A stretch of 64,000 nucleotides of DNA from Myxococcota bacterium (GTDB lineage: Bacteria > Myxococcota_A > Bradymonadia > UBA7976 > UBA1532), in contig CAUJDF010000044.1 of the NCBI GenBank assembly GCA_963169045.1, positions 620,001-684,000 of the forward strand, given 5' to 3'. The notes beneath the pieces were generated by a model, which had not been told where the DNA came from, ran no database searches, and worked only from the letters and a program-made list of their open reading frames with translations. The translations under genes and the position numbers were made by a program. Positions within the stretch are counted from its first letter, which is position 1. Every line of letters begins with the position of its first letter. Shown here piece by piece: positions 46,177 to 53,816 of the stretch.

Positions 46177-47207
46177 TCAGTCGTAGAGGTGGCAGGCCAC
46201 GAAGTGGCCGTCGCCGCGGTCCTTGAGGGCGGGCTCCTCCTTCACGCAGCGATCGGCGATCTGGGGGTTCGCGCGCCTGGCCGGACAGCGCGTGTGGAAG
46301 CGGCAGCCCGTCGGCGGCTTGATCGGGCTCGGCACGTCGCCCTCGAGGACGATGCGCGTACGCTTGTCCTCGACGCTCGGGTCGGGAATGGGCACCGCCG
46401 AGATCAGCGCCCGCGTGTACGGGTGCTGCGGGTCGTCATAGACCGCCTTGTAGTCGGCCAGCTCGACGATCTTGCCCAGGTACATCACCGCGATGCGGTC
46501 CGAGATGTGCCGCACGGCGGCCAGGTCATGGGCGATGAACAGGTAGGTGAGCCCCAGCTCCTGCTGCAAGTCCTCGAGAAGATTCATGATCTGTGCCTGG
46601 ATGGACACATCCAGGGCCGAGATCGGCTCGTCGCAGACGATGAACTTCGGGTTGGTCGCCAGCGCTCGCGCGATGCCGATACGCTGGCGCTGACCGCCCG
46701 AGAACTCGTGGGGATAACGGCGGACGTACTGCGGGTTGAGGCCGCAGCGCGCCATCAGCGCCTGGACGCGCTCCTGCAGCGCCCGCTTGTCGCGCTCGAG
46801 CGCGTGCGTGACGATCGGCTCGGCGATGATGTCGCCCACCGTCATGCGCGGGTTCAGGCAGGCGTACGGGTCCTGGAAGATCATCTGCATGTGACGGCGA
46901 TACGGGAACAGGCCCGCGTCGCCCTTCACCTGCGTCAGATCGGTGCTCTCGAAGTGCACCTGGCCGCCCGTGGGTCGGTAGAGCTGCAGGATGGCCCGGC
47001 CGGTCGTCGACTTGCCGCACCCCGACTCGCCCACGAGCCCCAGCGTCTCGCCCGGTCGCACGTCGAACGACACGCCGTCGACCGCGCGCACCGTCCCCAC
47101 CCGCTTGCGCAGCAGGCCCTTGTAGATGGGGAAGTGCATCTGGAGCCCGTCGACGCGCAGCAGCGACGTGGAGGGGACCGAATTCGGCGTCTCTTTGGCG
47201 AGGGCGT

Positions 47208-47211
<4 letters not shown>
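46177..47211 (-). CDS. oppF: Oligopeptide ABC importer, ATPase subunit OppF
   Basis: A 344-residue ATPase. A TTG start at 47211 is chosen because it overlaps the oppD stop (TTGA) and has GGAGGT 6 bp upstream; the next internal ATG would cut into the first beta-strand. Walker A is GESGCGKS, the signature FSGGQRQR, and the Walker B region [12 protein letters not shown]. The C-terminal oligopeptide/dipeptide extension has the Cys pattern GCRFHTRCP...ADRC. It pairs with OppD on the cytoplasmic side of the importer. Sixth and last gene of the operon. Confidence 0.95.
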
Positions 47212-48203
<992 letters not shown>

Positions 48204-48206
48204 GGC

Positions 48207-49493
48207 TCAGTCCTTCCGCACCTGCGGGTCGAGGGCGTCGCGCAGGCCGTCACCCAGGAAGTTCAACGAGAGCAGGGTGATCGCGAGGGCGGCGCCCGGA
48301 AAGACGATCAGCCAGGGATACTCGCGGAACGCCTGGGCGCCGTCCGACGCCAGCGATCCCCACGAGGCGTACGGCGCCTGAACGCCGAGGCCGAGGAACG
48401 ACAGGAAGGCCTCCTCGAGCATGACCGCCGGCACCGTCAGCGTGGAGTACACGATGATAGGGCCGAGCGCGTTGGGGATGAGGTGCCGGAAGATGATCTT
48501 GGCCTTCGACACGCCGATGGCGCGCGCGGCCTCGACGAACTCGCGACTCTTCAGGGTGATGACCTGGCCGCGCACGATGCGGCTCATCGTCAGCCACTGC
48601 ACCGCGCCGAGCGCCAGGAACAGCAGGTACAGCTTCGCGTCGCCCGGAAGCTCCTGGAAGATCACCATCAGCAGGATGACCAGGAACATGAAGGGCAGGC
48701 CGTACATGATGTCGACGAAGCGCATCATGAGGTTGTCGACGCGGCCGCCGAAGTAACCGGCGGTCGCGCCCCAGATGATGCCGATCCAGAAGCTGACCAT
48801 CGTGGCGATGAAGCCAACGGCCAGCGACACGCGGGCGCCCATCACCACGCGGGTGAGCAGGTCGCGACCGAGCGCGTCGGTGCCGAACCAGTGGGTCTGC
48901 GGCACGGGCGTGCCGGGGAACTCCGACGCGGACATGCCCTTGTCCTTGTCGGCGTCGTACTTGCGGATGAAGTCGCGCGCCTCGTCGTCGGGCATGAGCG
49001 CCGTGATCTCGGCCGCCTCTTCGAGATGGACGCTGCCGTTCCCGTCGGCGTCCATCTGCGCCAGCGTCTCCTGGGCGCTGTCGCGGAAGAGGTTGATCGG
49101 CGCCTCGCCGAGCTCGGCGGCGTCGAGGGCGCCGTCGCCGTTGCCGTCCAGCAGGCGGAACTCGAGCCGGCTCATCTCGGCCGCGAGCTCGAAGCGGTCG
49201 ATCTTGCCGTCGGCGTCTGCGTCGATCTCGCCGAATCGCGCCTTGGCCCCCTCGTCGAGCCGGTAATGCTCCTGCGGGATGCTGCGGGCGCCGATCGGCT
49301 TCGTCGCGTGCTCGAGGTGCTGCTCGTCGAAGGTGAACCGCGTCACGTAGCGGCTGATGAGGCCGAAGCCGAGGGCGCACAGCGCCATCAGCGCCACGAC
49401 GACCGCGCCGGCCATCGCGGCCCGGTTGCGGAGCAGCCGCTTCCAGGCGTCGGCCCAGAGACTGGTCCCCTTCTCGAGGTGCTGCTCAGTCAT
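48207..49493 (-). CDS. oppC: Oligopeptide ABC importer permease OppC with four EF-hands
   Basis: A 428-residue permease, about 125 longer than the usual ~300. TM1 lies at about 27-49. The normal permease core resumes at about 198 (THWFGTDALGRDLLTRVVMGAR), with TM2-TM6 and the cytoplasmic coupling (EAA) loop EAARAIGVSKAKIIFRHLIPNALGP split over about 318-343. Between TM1 and TM2, on the periplasmic side, residues 88-192 contain four EF-hand loops: D91-E102, D116-E127, D148-E159 and D180-E191. The reading frame is continuous and codon use matches the neighbours, so this is not a chimeric assembly artefact by appearance. The gene overlaps oppB by 8 bp. Calcium control of transport is a plausible inference. 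Confidence 0.95.
   Translation of the reverse strand: MTEQHLEKGTSLWADAWKRLLRNRAAMAGAVVVALMALCALGFGLISRYVTRFTFDEQHLEHATKPIGARSIPQEHYRLDEGAKARFGEIDADADGKIDRFELAAEMSRLEFRLLDGNGDGALDAAELGEAPINLFRDSAQETLAQMDADGNGSVHLEEAAEITALMPDDEARDFIRKYDADKDKGMSASEFPGTPVPQTHWFGTDALGRDLLTRVVMGARVSLAVGFIATMVSFWIGIIWGATAGYFGGRVDNLMMRFVDIMYGLPFMFLVILLMVIFQELPGDAKLYLLFLALGAVQWLTMSRIVRGQVITLKSREFVEAARAIGVSKAKIIFRHLIPNALGPIIVYSTLTVPAVMLEEAFLSFLGLGVQAPYASWGSLASDGAQAFREYPWLIVFPGAALAITLLSLNFLGDGLRDALDPQVRKD
48918..49232 (-). other. EF-hand calcium-binding insert inside OppC
   Basis: The insert spans residues 88-192. Loop 1 is DADADGKIDRFE and loop 2 DGNGDGALDAAE; loop 3 is DADGNGSVHLEE and loop 4 DADKDKGMSASE. Loops 1-3 have every canonical ligand (positions 1, 3, 5, 12), Gly at 6 and a hydrophobic residue at 8. 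Loop 4 keeps the ligands but has Lys at 6. Spacing of 25, 32 and 32 residues fits two paired EF-hand lobes or two extracellular-calcium-style pairs. Confidence 0.93.
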
Positions 49494-50430
49494 AGCTCAC
49501 CCGCGGATCGAGCACCGTGTACAGGACGTCCACGATGAGGTTCAGGACGACGAGCAGCGCCGAGTAGAGGACGATCGTGCCGAGCACCAGCGGGTAGTCG
49601 CGGTTGAAGGCCGAGGCGACGAAGTGTGTGCCCAGCCCGGGGATGTTGAAGATCTTCTCGATCACCACCGAGCCGGTGAGCATGCCGGCGAAGGCCGGTC
49701 CGAGGAAGCTGACCACCGGAATGACCGCGCCCTTGATCGCGTGCCGCGCCACGACGACCGTCTCGCTCAGGCCCTTGGCGCGCGCGGTGCGGATGTAGTC
49801 CTGCCGGATGATCTCGAGCATGCCGCTGCGCGTGAGGCGCGCGATGTAGGCGGCGTAGTAGACGCCGAGCGTCAGGCTCGGCAGCAGGCTGCTCTTGAAA
49901 TGGCCCCAGATGCCCTTCTCGAGCCCGTTCCAGCCCGCCGCGTCGAACCAGCGCAGCTTGATCGCGAAGAGCACGATCAGCAGCGGCGCGAGCACGAAGT
50001 TCGGGATGGACACGCCCGCCATGGCCGTCGTCATGGCGCCGTAGTCCTCCCAGCGGTTCTGGCGGAGGCCGGCGATGAGCCCGGCGCTGAGGCCGAGCAT
50101 CACCGCCACGATCATCGCCTGGAAGCCGAGGACGAGCGAGACGGGGAGGCCTTCGGCCAGGATCTCGTTCACCGTGCGGTCGGGGTACTTCATCGAAGGG
50201 CCGAAGTCGCCCTTCAGCACGATGGAGTCCATCTGCCGCAGGTATTGCTCCCAGAGGGGCTTGTCGAGGTGGTACTTCGCCTCGATGTTCCGCTTCACCT
50301 CGTCGGGGAGCTTGCGGTCGGCGTCGAAGGGGCCGCCGGGAGCGACCTTCATCACGAAGAACGACGCCGTGATGATGATCAGGATGACCCCGACCGAGCT
50401 CAGCAGGCGTTTGACGATGTACTGGAACAT
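49486..50430 (-). CDS. oppB: Oligopeptide ABC importer permease OppB
   Basis: A 314-residue permease of normal length with six predicted helices. The N-terminus is the typical MFQYIVKRLLSSVGVILIII, and the coupling loop is YIRTARAKGLSETVVVARHA, followed by IEKIFNIPGLG. It forms the translocation pore with OppC. The ATG shares its A with the stop of the binding-protein gene (TAATG). Unlike OppC it has no insert. Confidence 0.96.
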   Translation of the reverse strand: MFQYIVKRLLSSVGVILIIITASFFVMKVAPGGPFDADRKLPDEVKRNIEAKYHLDKPLWEQYLRQMDSIVLKGDFGPSMKYPDRTVNEILAEGLPVSLVLGFQAMIVAVMLGLSAGLIAGLRQNRWEDYGAMTTAMAGVSIPNFVLAPLLIVLFAIKLRWFDAAGWNGLEKGIWGHFKSSLLPSLTLGVYYAAYIARLTRSGMLEIIRQDYIRTARAKGLSETVVVARHAIKGAVIPVVSFLGPAFAGMLTGSVVIEKIFNIPGLGTHFVASAFNRDYPLVLGTIVLYSALLVVLNLIVDVLYTVLDPRVSYD

Positions 50431-52127
50431 TACTGCGCGATGGTGAAGAAGCGCGACGGGTGGATGCCCTGGAGGTGGGACTGATAGCCCTTCAGCCAGG
50501 GCTTCACCATGTCGTGCTTCACGTAGAAGTAGATCGGGAGCGCGGGCAGCTCCTTCGCGAAGAGCTCCTCGGCCTGTCGGAGGAGATCGAACCGCTTGTT
50601 GGGGTCCGCTTCTTTCCGCGCGTCGGCGATCAACCGGTTGAACTCGGGGTGGTCCCAGTTCGTGTGGTTGTTGCTGTTGGGGCCTTCCCAGAGGTCGAGG
50701 AAGGTCATCGGGTCGAGGTAGTCACCGATCCAGGCGCCGCGGGAGACCATGTACTCCTTGGCATTCAGCTTCTTGAGGAGGACCTTCCACTCCATGTTGT
50801 CGAGGTCGCACTCGATGCCGAGGTTGTTCTTCCACTCCTGCTGGATGAACTCGGCGATGAGCTTGTGGCCCTCGAGCGTGTTGTAGCTGATCTGGAACCG
50901 CGGGAAGCCCTTGCCCTCGGGGAAGCCCGCCTCGGCCAGCAGCTTGCGCGCCTGGTCGGGGTCGTACTCGCTGCCCTTCGCCGGCTTGTACCCGAGCTCC
51001 TCGAGCTTCGGGTGCACGATCGAAGTGGCCGCCTCCTGGCCGCCCTTCACCACGAACTTGCCGATCTTCTCCTTGTCGATGGCCAGGCTGAGCGCCTGGC
51101 GCACCTTCGCGTCGTTGAACGGCGGCTTCGCGGTGTTGATGTAGTAGTAGTAGACCCCGAGGTACGGGCTCGACTTCAGCTCGGGGTTCTTCTCCTTGAG
51201 GTACCGCGGCAGCACCGACTCCGGCACCTTGCTCTCCAGGTAGTCGAGCTGGCCGGCCAGGTACATGTTGTGCGCGGGCTGGTTCTCCTGGGTGATGTGG
51301 AAGACCACCTTGTCGAAGGGGATCTTGTCCTTGTCCCAGTAGTGCTCGTTCTTGACGGCGATGATGTGCTGCTGGCTCTTCCACTCGGTGACCTTCCACG
51401 GGCCGTTCGAGACGATGTTCTCGGGGCGGGCCCACTGGTCGCCGTGCTTGTCGATCACGTGCTTCGGCACGGGCGCCATCGTGTAGAAGGCGGTGAGCTG
51501 CTGGAAGTACGGGATCGGGCCGACGAGCTTCACCTGCAGGGTGTAGTCGTCGGTCGCCTTCACGCCCACCGCGTCGCGCAGCTTGTCGCGATCGGGGCCT
51601 TCCTTCGACTCGTTGTACTCCTTGCCGCCCTGCAGCACCCACAGGAAGCTCGCGTAGCGCGAGGCCGTCTTCGGATCGAGCGTGCGCTTCCAGGAGTACT
51701 CGAAGTCGCGGGCCGTGACCGGCTGGCCGTCGGACCACTTCGCGTTCTGGCGCAGCTTGAACGTGACCGTCAGGCCGTCGGGCGACGTCTCCATCGTCTC
51801 GGCGACGCCGGGCAGCCACTCCTTGTGGTTGGGTCCGTACTGGAACAGGCCCTCGAAGGTGTCGTGACAGACCTGGCCGCCCTCGGACTCACTGATGAGG
51901 TTGGGGTCGAGGTACTCGGGCTCGCCCAGGCTGCGGTGGAAGACCCGCGCGTCCTTCTCTTCGCGCGCCTGGCCGGCCTCCGTCGCGGGCGCCTTGGCGC
52001 CCTGGGCCTTCGAGCCGGGCGCGGCACCGCTCGACGGCGCGGGCGTGTCGGACGGCTTGTCGCCACAGGCGGCGAAGAAGAGCGCGAGCAGGCCGAGGAC
52101 GGCGCGACGCGTGGCGGTGTGCTTCAT
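50430..52127 (-). CDS. Peptide-binding lipoprotein (OppA-like), second copy
   Basis: A 565-residue family 5 solute-binding protein with lipobox FFAAC and a low-complexity linker. The body shows the family pattern FHRSLGEPEYLDPNLISESE, then FKLRQNAKWSDGQPVTARDFEYSWKR and a WIGDYLDPMTFLDLWEG segment. It captures peptides and delivers them to OppBC. It is clearly related to the gene upstream (52152-53816), sharing domain order and the DP-x-TFLD-x-W motif, and likely arose by duplication with later specificity change. It lies 24 bp behind that gene. Confidence 0.93.
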   Translation of the reverse strand: MKHTATRRAVLGLLALFFAACGDKPSDTPAPSSGAAPGSKAQGAKAPATEAGQAREEKDARVFHRSLGEPEYLDPNLISESEGGQVCHDTFEGLFQYGPNHKEWLPGVAETMETSPDGLTVTFKLRQNAKWSDGQPVTARDFEYSWKRTLDPKTASRYASFLWVLQGGKEYNESKEGPDRDKLRDAVGVKATDDYTLQVKLVGPIPYFQQLTAFYTMAPVPKHVIDKHGDQWARPENIVSNGPWKVTEWKSQQHIIAVKNEHYWDKDKIPFDKVVFHITQENQPAHNMYLAGQLDYLESKVPESVLPRYLKEKNPELKSSPYLGVYYYYINTAKPPFNDAKVRQALSLAIDKEKIGKFVVKGGQEAATSIVHPKLEELGYKPAKGSEYDPDQARKLLAEAGFPEGKGFPRFQISYNTLEGHKLIAEFIQQEWKNNLGIECDLDNMEWKVLLKKLNAKEYMVSRGAWIGDYLDPMTFLDLWEGPNSNNHTNWDHPEFNRLIADARKEADPNKRFDLLRQAEELFAKELPALPIYFYVKHDMVKPWLKGYQSHLQGIHPSRFFTIAQ

Positions 52128-52151: not shown

Positions 52152-53816
52152 TTACTTGCTGATGTACTTCGCGGGGTGCAGGTCGAGGAGCTGCGGCTCG
52201 AAGCCCTTCACCGCGGGGTTGATCAGGAACGCGCGGGCATAGTGCTTGATCGGGACGACCGGACCGCGGTCGAGCAGGATCGCCTCCGCCTGGGCCAGGA
52301 GCGCGGAGCGCCTCGCGGCGTCGGGCTCGTGATCGGCCTTCTCGATCAGCCCGTCGTACTCCTTGTCGGACCAGCCCGTGTTGTTGTTGCCGTTCCCCGT
52401 CGTCCACATGTCGAGGAACGTCTTCGGATCGTGGTAGTCGCCGATCCACCCGGAGCGGGAGACGTCGTAATCGATCTCCTGCTGGCTCTTCAGGTAGACC
52501 TTCCACTCCTGATTCACGAGCTCGACGTTGATCTTCAGGTGGCGCGTCCACATCTGCTGGATCATCTCCGCCACCTTTTTGTGGTTCTCGTCGGTGTTGT
52601 AGAGGATGCGCAGCGTGGGGAAGTCCTTCCCCTCGGGGAAGCCCGCTTGCGCCAGCAGCTCGCGCGCGCGGTCGGGATCGAAATCGAAATCGCCCTTGGC
52701 CGCCGTGTAGCCGTCCATCTTCGGGACAAAACTGCTGGCGGGCGTGAAGCCGCTCTTCACGACCTTGACGATCCCCTCGCGGTCGACGGCGAGGTTCAGG
52801 GCCTTGCGAACGGTGTTGTTCTTCAGGACCGGGTGCTGGACGTTGATGCGGTAGAAGTAGATGCCGAGGTAAGGCTCTTCTTTGTAATCCTTGCGCTGCG
52901 ACAGCGTCGCCATCTTGATCGATGGCAGGTTGACGGAGCCCGTCCAGTCGAGCTTGCCCGCCTCATACATGTTGATGGCGGTCGTGTTCTCCTGGATGGG
53001 CAGCACGACGACCTTCGCCAGCTTCACGTTCGCCGCGTCCCAGTACTGATCGTTCTTGACCAGGACCACGTTCTTGTTCGGCACCCACTCCGAGAGCTTG
53101 AAGGCGCCGTTCGAAACCATGTTCTCGGGGCGCGTCCACTGGTCGCCCTTGGCCTCGACCGTCTTGCGGTGGGCGGGGCGAAACGTGTGGTGGGCACAGA
53201 GCTCGAGGAAGTAGGGGGCGACGTACTCGAGCTTCACCTCGAGGGTGCGGTCGTCGAGGGCCTTCACGCCGACGGACTTCGGATCCTTGTTGGCCCCCTG
53301 GGTGAAGGCGCGGCCGCCCTGCAGGATCCAGAGCTGCTCCGCGTAGGGGCTGGCGGTGGCGGCGTCGAGGACGCGCAGCCAGGACCACTCGAAGTCGTGG
53401 GCGGTGACCGGGTCGCCGTTCGACCACTTCGCGCCCTCGCGCATGGTGAAGGTGTAGGTGCGGCCGTCCTCGGAGACCTTCCAGGACTCGGCGGCGGCGG
53501 GGACGACGGGCCCCTCGCCCTTCGCGTACTCGACGAGCCCCTCGAAGAGGTTCATGCCGACGGCGAACTCGTTGACGCCGCGCATCTTGCCGACGTCGAG
53601 CGTCTCCGGCTCGCCACCGATGGCGAACACGAAGGTGTCGGCGGGCGTCTCGAAGGCCGTTTCGTTCTTGGGCGCGGGCTCGCCCGGAGGCGCCTTCTTC
53701 GCCTCGCCGGCCGTGGTCGCCGTCGCGGGACCGGCTTTGTCGCCACCGCCACTGGAGGAGCAGGCCGCGAGGAGGAGCAGGAAGGCGGCGAGCGGCGCGG
53801 CGGGGCGTCGGGACAC
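52152..53816 (-). CDS. Peptide-binding lipoprotein (OppA-like), first gene of the importer operon
   Basis: A 554-residue family 5 solute-binding protein. The GTG at 53816 is preferred because GGAGGT lies about 6 bp upstream and it opens a signal ending LLLAAC. After a Ser/Gly/Ala linker come FAIGGEPETLDVGKMRGVNE, FTMREGAKWSNGDPVTAHDF, and the end segment SGWIGDYHDPKTFLDMWTTG. Together with the next gene it gives the importer two different receptors. The upstream sequence has a TTGACT -35-like element. Confidence 0.93.
   Translation of the reverse strand: MSRRPAAPLAAFLLLLAACSSSGGGDKAGPATATTAGEAKKAPPGEPAPKNETAFETPADTFVFAIGGEPETLDVGKMRGVNEFAVGMNLFEGLVEYAKGEGPVVPAAAESWKVSEDGRTYTFTMREGAKWSNGDPVTAHDFEWSWLRVLDAATASPYAEQLWILQGGRAFTQGANKDPKSVGVKALDDRTLEVKLEYVAPYFLELCAHHTFRPAHRKTVEAKGDQWTRPENMVSNGAFKLSEWVPNKNVVLVKNDQYWDAANVKLAKVVVLPIQENTTAINMYEAGKLDWTGSVNLPSIKMATLSQRKDYKEEPYLGIYFYRINVQHPVLKNNTVRKALNLAVDREGIVKVVKSGFTPASSFVPKMDGYTAAKGDFDFDPDRARELLAQAGFPEGKDFPTLRILYNTDENHKKVAEMIQQMWTRHLKINVELVNQEWKVYLKSQQEIDYDVSRSGWIGDYHDPKTFLDMWTTGNGNNNTGWSDKEYDGLIEKADHEPDAARRSALLAQAEAILLDRGPVVPIKHYARAFLINPAVKGFEPQLLDLHPAKYISK

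Follow-up and report, generated by a model that had tools for sequence, protein, structure and literature searches.

Four EF-hand loops between TM1 and TM2 of an OppC-type peptide permease in a lineage of Myxococcota

Few transporters are as widespread as the peptide ABC importers, whose permease subunits are built to much the same plan. What does a domain with four EF-hand loops do on the periplasmic side of such a permease? The question is raised by a 64,000-nucleotide stretch of DNA (the window) on contig G000:C44 of a 9.0 Mb Myxococcota genome assembled in 109 contigs. The open reading frame list and Pfam searches of the window revealed a minus-strand operon, oppA-oppA-oppB-oppC-oppD-oppF, running from 53795 to 46177. 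It comprises two tandem oppA genes encoding SBP_bac_5 binding proteins (52152..53795, start not fixed, and 50430..52127), oppB (49486..50430), oppC (48207..49493), and the ATPase genes oppD (47208..48203) and oppF (46177..47211, start not fixed). Peptide import is predicted for this operon from the OppC_N and BPD_transp_1 domains, the gene order, and the fold of OppC. The same genome encodes a second OppC-like permease (L002, contig C42) with a different, 92-residue loop that lacks EF-hands.

The 428-residue oppC product is an intact oligopeptide permease, and between its TM1 and a GTDxxGRD segment lie four EF-hand loops. Pfam placed OppC_N, with TM1, at residues 11-50 (49344..49463, minus strand like all features below; predicted helices at 12-22 and 24-41) and BPD_transp_1 at residues 238-427, both over cut-off, and a phmmer search of the PDB matched E. 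coli OppC at 5.6e-80. The AlphaFold2 model superposed on E. coli OppC (8z21_B) with a Z of 29.0 and an rmsd of 2.0 over 278 aligned residues, and the core from TM2 to TM6 is encoded at 48210..48860. The NCBIfam equivalog cut-offs were missed (OppC PRK15406, 299.9/433 bits; Opp3C, 302.5/450 bits; Opp4C, 295.5/350 bits), so we assign the protein to the OppC family and give it no equivalog name.

The insert forms a domain at residues 81-192 (48918..49253), as delimited by AlphaFold2 and Pfam, and contains EF1 (DADADGKIDRFE; residues 91-102, 49188..49223), EF2 (DGNGDGALDAAE; residues 116-127, 49113..49148), EF3 (DADGNGSVHLEE; residues 148-159, 49017..49052), and EF4 (DADKDKGMSASE; residues 180-191, 48921..48956). 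EF1 to EF3 possess all canonical ligands and Gly at position 6; EF4 has the ligands at positions 1, 3, 5, and 12 with Lys at position 6. Each loop is 12 residues long with ligands at positions 1, 3, 5, and 12, and sequence and model place helices on both sides. Pfam detected EF-hand_1, EF-hand_5, EF-hand_6, and EF-hand_7 in the region 85-192, with EF-hand_1 (3.2e-13) and EF-hand_7 (2.3e-11) both over their cut-offs, and residues 110-178 matched calmodulin in the PDB (phmmer, best 4.9e-8). When the 156-residue loop was shuffled 2000 times, 0.16 loose EF loops were expected compared to the four observed (p 0.0005), and 0.005 strict loops compared to three, a number that never arose in the shuffles. 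The loop is also strongly acidic (34 D/E, 17 K/R). A preliminary description of this DNA had reported four EF-hand loops at residues 88-192 (48918-49232), three of them fully canonical, in the periplasmic TM1-TM2 loop of a full OppC; the Pfam, phmmer, and shuffling results and the positions of OppC_N, BPD_transp_1, and the EF-hands bear this out, and its coordinates were correct. As it had also stated, the OppB of the operon, judged by eye, has no such insert, and none in its scoop. The ligand pattern and the fold predict that the insert binds calcium. EF-hands of lanmodulin carry Pro at loop position 2, and lanthanide binding of that kind was considered and rejected: Pro occupied this position in 0 of 140 loops, and the LanM match (26.2/135 bits) was below cut-off.

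AlphaFold2 modeling of the window OppC with an alignment of 51 OppC sequences, from which L061 and some near-duplicates were left out, gave a mean pLDDT of 90.9 and a pTM of 0.87. Within residues 71-190 the pLDDT was mostly 93-98 per ten-residue block, with dips to 72 (131-140) and 86 (161-170); the insert modeled alone with 20 sequences gave 85.6. Among the matches listed, the EF2-EF3 part superposed on calmodulin C-lobes and parvalbumin with Z values of 7.3-8.2 over 55-74 residues. A Z of 7-8 is middling by itself, and the sequence evidence agrees with it, so that sequence and model together place an EF-hand fold at this position. The whole four-hand arrangement matched known structures poorly (TM <=0.37 by query among the 50 matches listed). 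Bridge residues in the predicted secondary structure (97-98/187-188 and 123/155) suggest a nested pairing of EF1 with EF4 and of EF2 with EF3.

Of 377 genomes sampled from the phylum, 57 encode an EF-hand OppC, amounting to 58 sequences (L116 and L117 being cut by contig ends) in 13 family codes; at E <= 1e-60, an OppC match was present in 109 of the 377. The 39 places with E <= 1.1e-100 all align from residue 173 or earlier and thus include EF sequence, and the counts leave unread 19 places, of which 18 are weak (E >= 1.4e-65, aligned only from residue 194) and one is a contig-edge fragment (G185:C274). Relatives with a named group are mostly Myxococcota or Bradymonadales, and they include Lujinxingia vulgaris TMQ2 (L016 = G033), an isolate that belongs to the same class as the window's genome; three single-contig genomes (G007, G086, and G145) also have the domain. 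Seven of the 13 sampled genomes of the window's own family gave no OppC match at E <= 1e-60. Family f15 keeps the long loop with only EF4 clearly canonical, and L102/L020 show no canonical loop by regular expression, yet Pfam still detects EF-hands in them. Across the relatives the strict EF pattern matched 91 times compared to 0.15 expected; about 10 of the 140 loose matches are no real loops (type DISYDHRSYDGD, second clade) and are excluded by the strict pattern. In counts made without EF loci L014, L021/L119, L095, L170, L188, L189, and L192, none of 90 distinct short TM1-TM2 loops (14-32 residues) and none of four loops of 54-109 residues (L002, L051, L167, and L168) had an EF motif, and of 51 loops of 154-250 residues 50 were of the EF lineage and one, from a Treponema (L061), lacked EF-hands. 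An EF-hand family search of the window's genome, with 150 of 341 candidates scored, gave two sub-cut-off matches, one of them this oppC.

Outside the phylum, no EF-hand OppC was seen among 598 genomes from the phyla of five other relatives (149, 46, 5, 249, and 149), 165 of which had an OppC match (91, 10, 3, 28, and 33, respectively), a verdict reached mostly from the alignment start and, for 17 loci, from the sequence itself. The cut-off was 1e-50 in the first sample and 1e-75 in the other four, values that leave out distant paralogues; the sequences read do not include those of eight Spirochaetota places (query start 171-177; frames <=374 residues).

Among the 31 distinct class-level inserts, canonical ligands at positions 1, 3, 5, and 12 were found in 25 for EF1, 29 for EF2, 17 for EF3, and 22 for EF4. 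Mean entropy in these inserts was 0.99 bits in the 16 ligand columns versus 2.56 bits in the 24 non-ligand loop columns (Mann-Whitney p 2.3e-7), the ligand positions being by far the better conserved. Judging by the degenerate loops of Lujinxingiaceae-type sequences, calcium need not be bound at every site. Asp occupies EF4 position 1 in 57 of 58 sequences, and the last ligand position is E in 55 and Q in three, followed by [FYA]xGxP, seven residues, and the G(T/S/A/C)D motif. The resulting linker (48885..48920) is exactly 12 residues long in 58/58 EF sequences and in 0/100 control OppC proteins; this contrast is partly built in because most controls have short loops, and its informative part is the constancy within the EF set. 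The linker ends at the GTDxxGRD segment leading into TM2 (residues 204-211, 48861..48884), where G204, D206, G209, and R210 are invariant in 51 OppC rows, so EF4 is registered to the membrane segment that enters TM2. This constancy, kept while the loop varies from 154 to 250 residues, is the strongest hint of mechanical coupling. In family f3, two cysteines stand at the same columns in 16/16 full-length inserts and 0/15 others, and this pair would fit a disulfide, as expected in an oxidizing periplasm.

A quick tree built from the core only (GTDxxGRD to the end) needs three changes of the EF label, and its starred branches force one. When 29 EF rows were constrained to one clade against 32 others, with four long-branch EF rows (L170, L145, L172, and L189) left out, the resulting tree beat the free quick search by 3.69 log units (p-AU 0.589). 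Since this one-clade tree is not rejected, the data allow a single acquisition after which the middle part grew and shrank; a single origin, judged from these sequences, is neither rejected nor proven.

What, then, might the domain do? The reading we prefer, held tentatively and as not quite an even call, is a periplasmic domain stiffened by calcium and rigidly attached to the permease, where it guides or receives OppA. In this reading a four-EF-hand, calmodulin-like domain has taken the place of the periplasmic TM1-TM2 loop and belongs to the permease architecture of a large Myxococcota lineage. Periplasmic calcium, probably near saturation, would stiffen it; EF4, probably paired with EF1, would form a base locked 12 residues from the GTDxxGRD segment entering TM2, and EF2 with EF3 an outer, more variable pair. 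Above the pore, the domain would most likely dock or guide OppA, much as the maltose-binding protein is docked by MalF-P2. In E. coli DppABCDF, according to the accessible part of its description, DppA caps DppB and DppC, two permeases that differ in their TM1-TM2 regions (PMC12136057), so by analogy the OppC loop should adjoin the docking site. In AlgQ2, likewise from the accessible part of the source, the binding protein bears an EF-hand-like calcium site that meets the transporter from that protein's side (PMC5717064). On these two grounds we place a docking or guide domain ahead of the other readings considered below, and the retention of the domain in many relatives in the phylum suggests that calcium shapes how the pump meets its peptide-delivery protein. 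Counted against OppA docking are the contact described for E. coli in the same partial source, namely the DppB scoop entering the DppA cleft, with no contact by the DppC loop described there (PMC12136057), the incomplete ligands of EF3 (14/31 sequences) and EF4 (9/31), and the absence of a canonical loop by regular expression in L102/L020.

The neighborhoods of the EF-type genes bear on which binding protein could be received. We searched 16 of them with the window's opp genes and two flanking genes. At E 1e-10, a threshold too strict to catch a highly divergent second oppA, there was one oppA match in 12 neighborhoods, two in L200 and L201, and none in L205, which is cut by a contig end, and L212; oppD and/or oppF matches followed oppC in 13 of 16 (exceptions L205, L209, and L214). 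Tandem oppA genes were thus confined, among the loci examined, to the window's family (f1), which gives no support to the earlier suggestion that the insert clamps one of the two binding proteins.

That the domain is instead a stable, acidic, calcium-folded decoration of an insert-tolerant loop, with no role in transport, is possible though doubtful. Long OppC loops without EF-hands do occur at the same place in Planctomycetota (L185-L187), Spirochaetota (L175, L179, L182, and L190), and one Pseudomonadota genome (L196), and as these are of several unlike kinds the loop seems, from the sequences, to be a general site for inserted segments. The insert also evolves fast: in 17 of 18 pairs its dN exceeded that of the core by a factor of approximately four to eighteen (in the remaining pair the core showed no amino-acid change), and the window protein and L087 share 53% identity in the insert and 88% in the core, a rate that would count against docking as well. 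Against mere decoration stand the ligand conservation, the EF4 register fixed in all EF sequences, the retention across 13 family codes, and purifying selection outside f1, where the insert omega was 0.03-0.21 in 14 pairs (some with dS over 1); in four pairs within f1 it was 0.37-0.85, at a GC that makes synonymous change difficult to estimate.

EF-hands are common calcium switches, and the domain could also be a gate in which their occupancy tilts the EF4-GTDxxGRD unit and opens or blocks OppA docking, so that import follows external calcium. The fixed register of EF4 with the TM2 entry and the conserved ligands would suit a gate, but periplasmic calcium tracks the external level, which in saline habitats is high, so that only weak sites could serve a sensor; the incomplete ligands of EF3 and EF4 also speak against it, and we consider it unlikely. 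Less likely still is a fuller version, a calcium-gated importer in which the nested EF domain locked to the TM2 entry switches OppA docking and makes peptide uptake in a predatory or scavenging Myxococcota lineage depend on periplasmic calcium, as a permease-side counterpart of AlgQ2-type sites, with a lipoyl-like segment of the OppB scoop in sister families as a second element. A paper that describes Bradymonadales as predators living in saline habitats contains, in the accessible part of its main text, neither "calcium" nor "permease" (PMC7460792).

The OppB segments invoked here were found in the second EF clade, where the scoop has approximately 70 additional residues that look lipoyl-like by eye (L209:7094-8248, L210:7586-8740, L211:4139-5254 on the minus strand, L214:6205-7356, and L215:6476-7639); Pfam Biotin_lipoyl scored 22.9 bits on L211 compared to a cut-off of 22.1, 19.2 on L209, and 14.0 on L214, with no match on L210 and L215. 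In f3 loci the scoop has cysteine-bearing extra residues, and in Lujinxingiaceae-type loci (L202:5987-7018 on the minus strand, L203, and L213) a cysteine-containing insert of roughly 40 residues. Such gains by the OppB scoop in sister lineages, together with the strongly acidic loop, would also agree with an envelope anchor, a calcium-loaded domain tying the transporter to peptidoglycan, a lipoprotein, or an outer-membrane peptide receptor rather than to OppA. We regard this as quite improbable, as the comparison of the 16 neighborhoods with the window's opp genes and two flanking genes revealed no partner gene, the flanking genes not being found beside the relatives' operons; such a comparison can show only genes that the window contains.

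Finally, although the genome is an assembly in many contigs, an assembly chimera or annotation error is next to impossible, as 56 other sampled genomes have this domain in the same position, including the three single-contig genomes and L. vulgaris TMQ2; this retention excludes both the chimera and the absence from all relatives that the preliminary description had named as grounds for doubt.

The preliminary description knew of no characterized importer of this type, and our literature search, with most subscription journals outside its reach, likewise found no title or abstract describing an EF-hand domain in an ABC importer permease. The accessible part of a review of bacterial calcium proteins mentions no such importer (PMC10574481), and in that of PMC7438024 BPD_transp_1 and EF-hand both occur, EF-hand only in a reference. 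A conserved calmodulin-like domain whose register to a membrane helix is fixed would represent a bacterial calcium-binding module integrated in the core of an importer, and it makes it possible to test whether nutrient import is under the control of external calcium. The TM1-TM2 loop of OppC also emerges as a place where lineages insert different segments.

The OppABCDF and DppABCDF systems (E. coli 8z21 and 8z1v; M. tuberculosis 8j5q and 8wd9) share with the window operon OppC_N and BPD_transp_1, the operon order oppA-B-C-D-F, and the core fold, whereas their OppC/DppC chains compared here, of 273-302 residues, lack the approximately 130 extra periplasmic residues of the window OppC. The EF2-EF3 part superposes on the EF-hand pairs of calmodulin and parvalbumin, but the likely pairing in the window protein is nested (1:4, 2:3) and not 1:2, 3:4. 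In the maltose importer, too, a type I permease has a large inserted periplasmic domain, MalF P2, which holds the binding protein; it lies in another loop (TM3-TM4), has another fold, and involves no calcium. SCaMC mitochondrial carriers likewise have an EF-hand domain fused to a transporter (4n5x, among the structure matches listed), but they are eukaryotic and otherwise unrelated transporters with a cytosol-side sensor at the N-terminus. Closest in its use of calcium is the binding-protein cluster of AlgQ2, FusA, and Smon0123, which, as far as its sources are accessible, resembles the window in having a calcium site near the interface of binding protein and permease of an ABC importer; there the EF-hand-like site belongs to the binding protein, whereas in the window a predicted four-EF-hand domain belongs to the permease.
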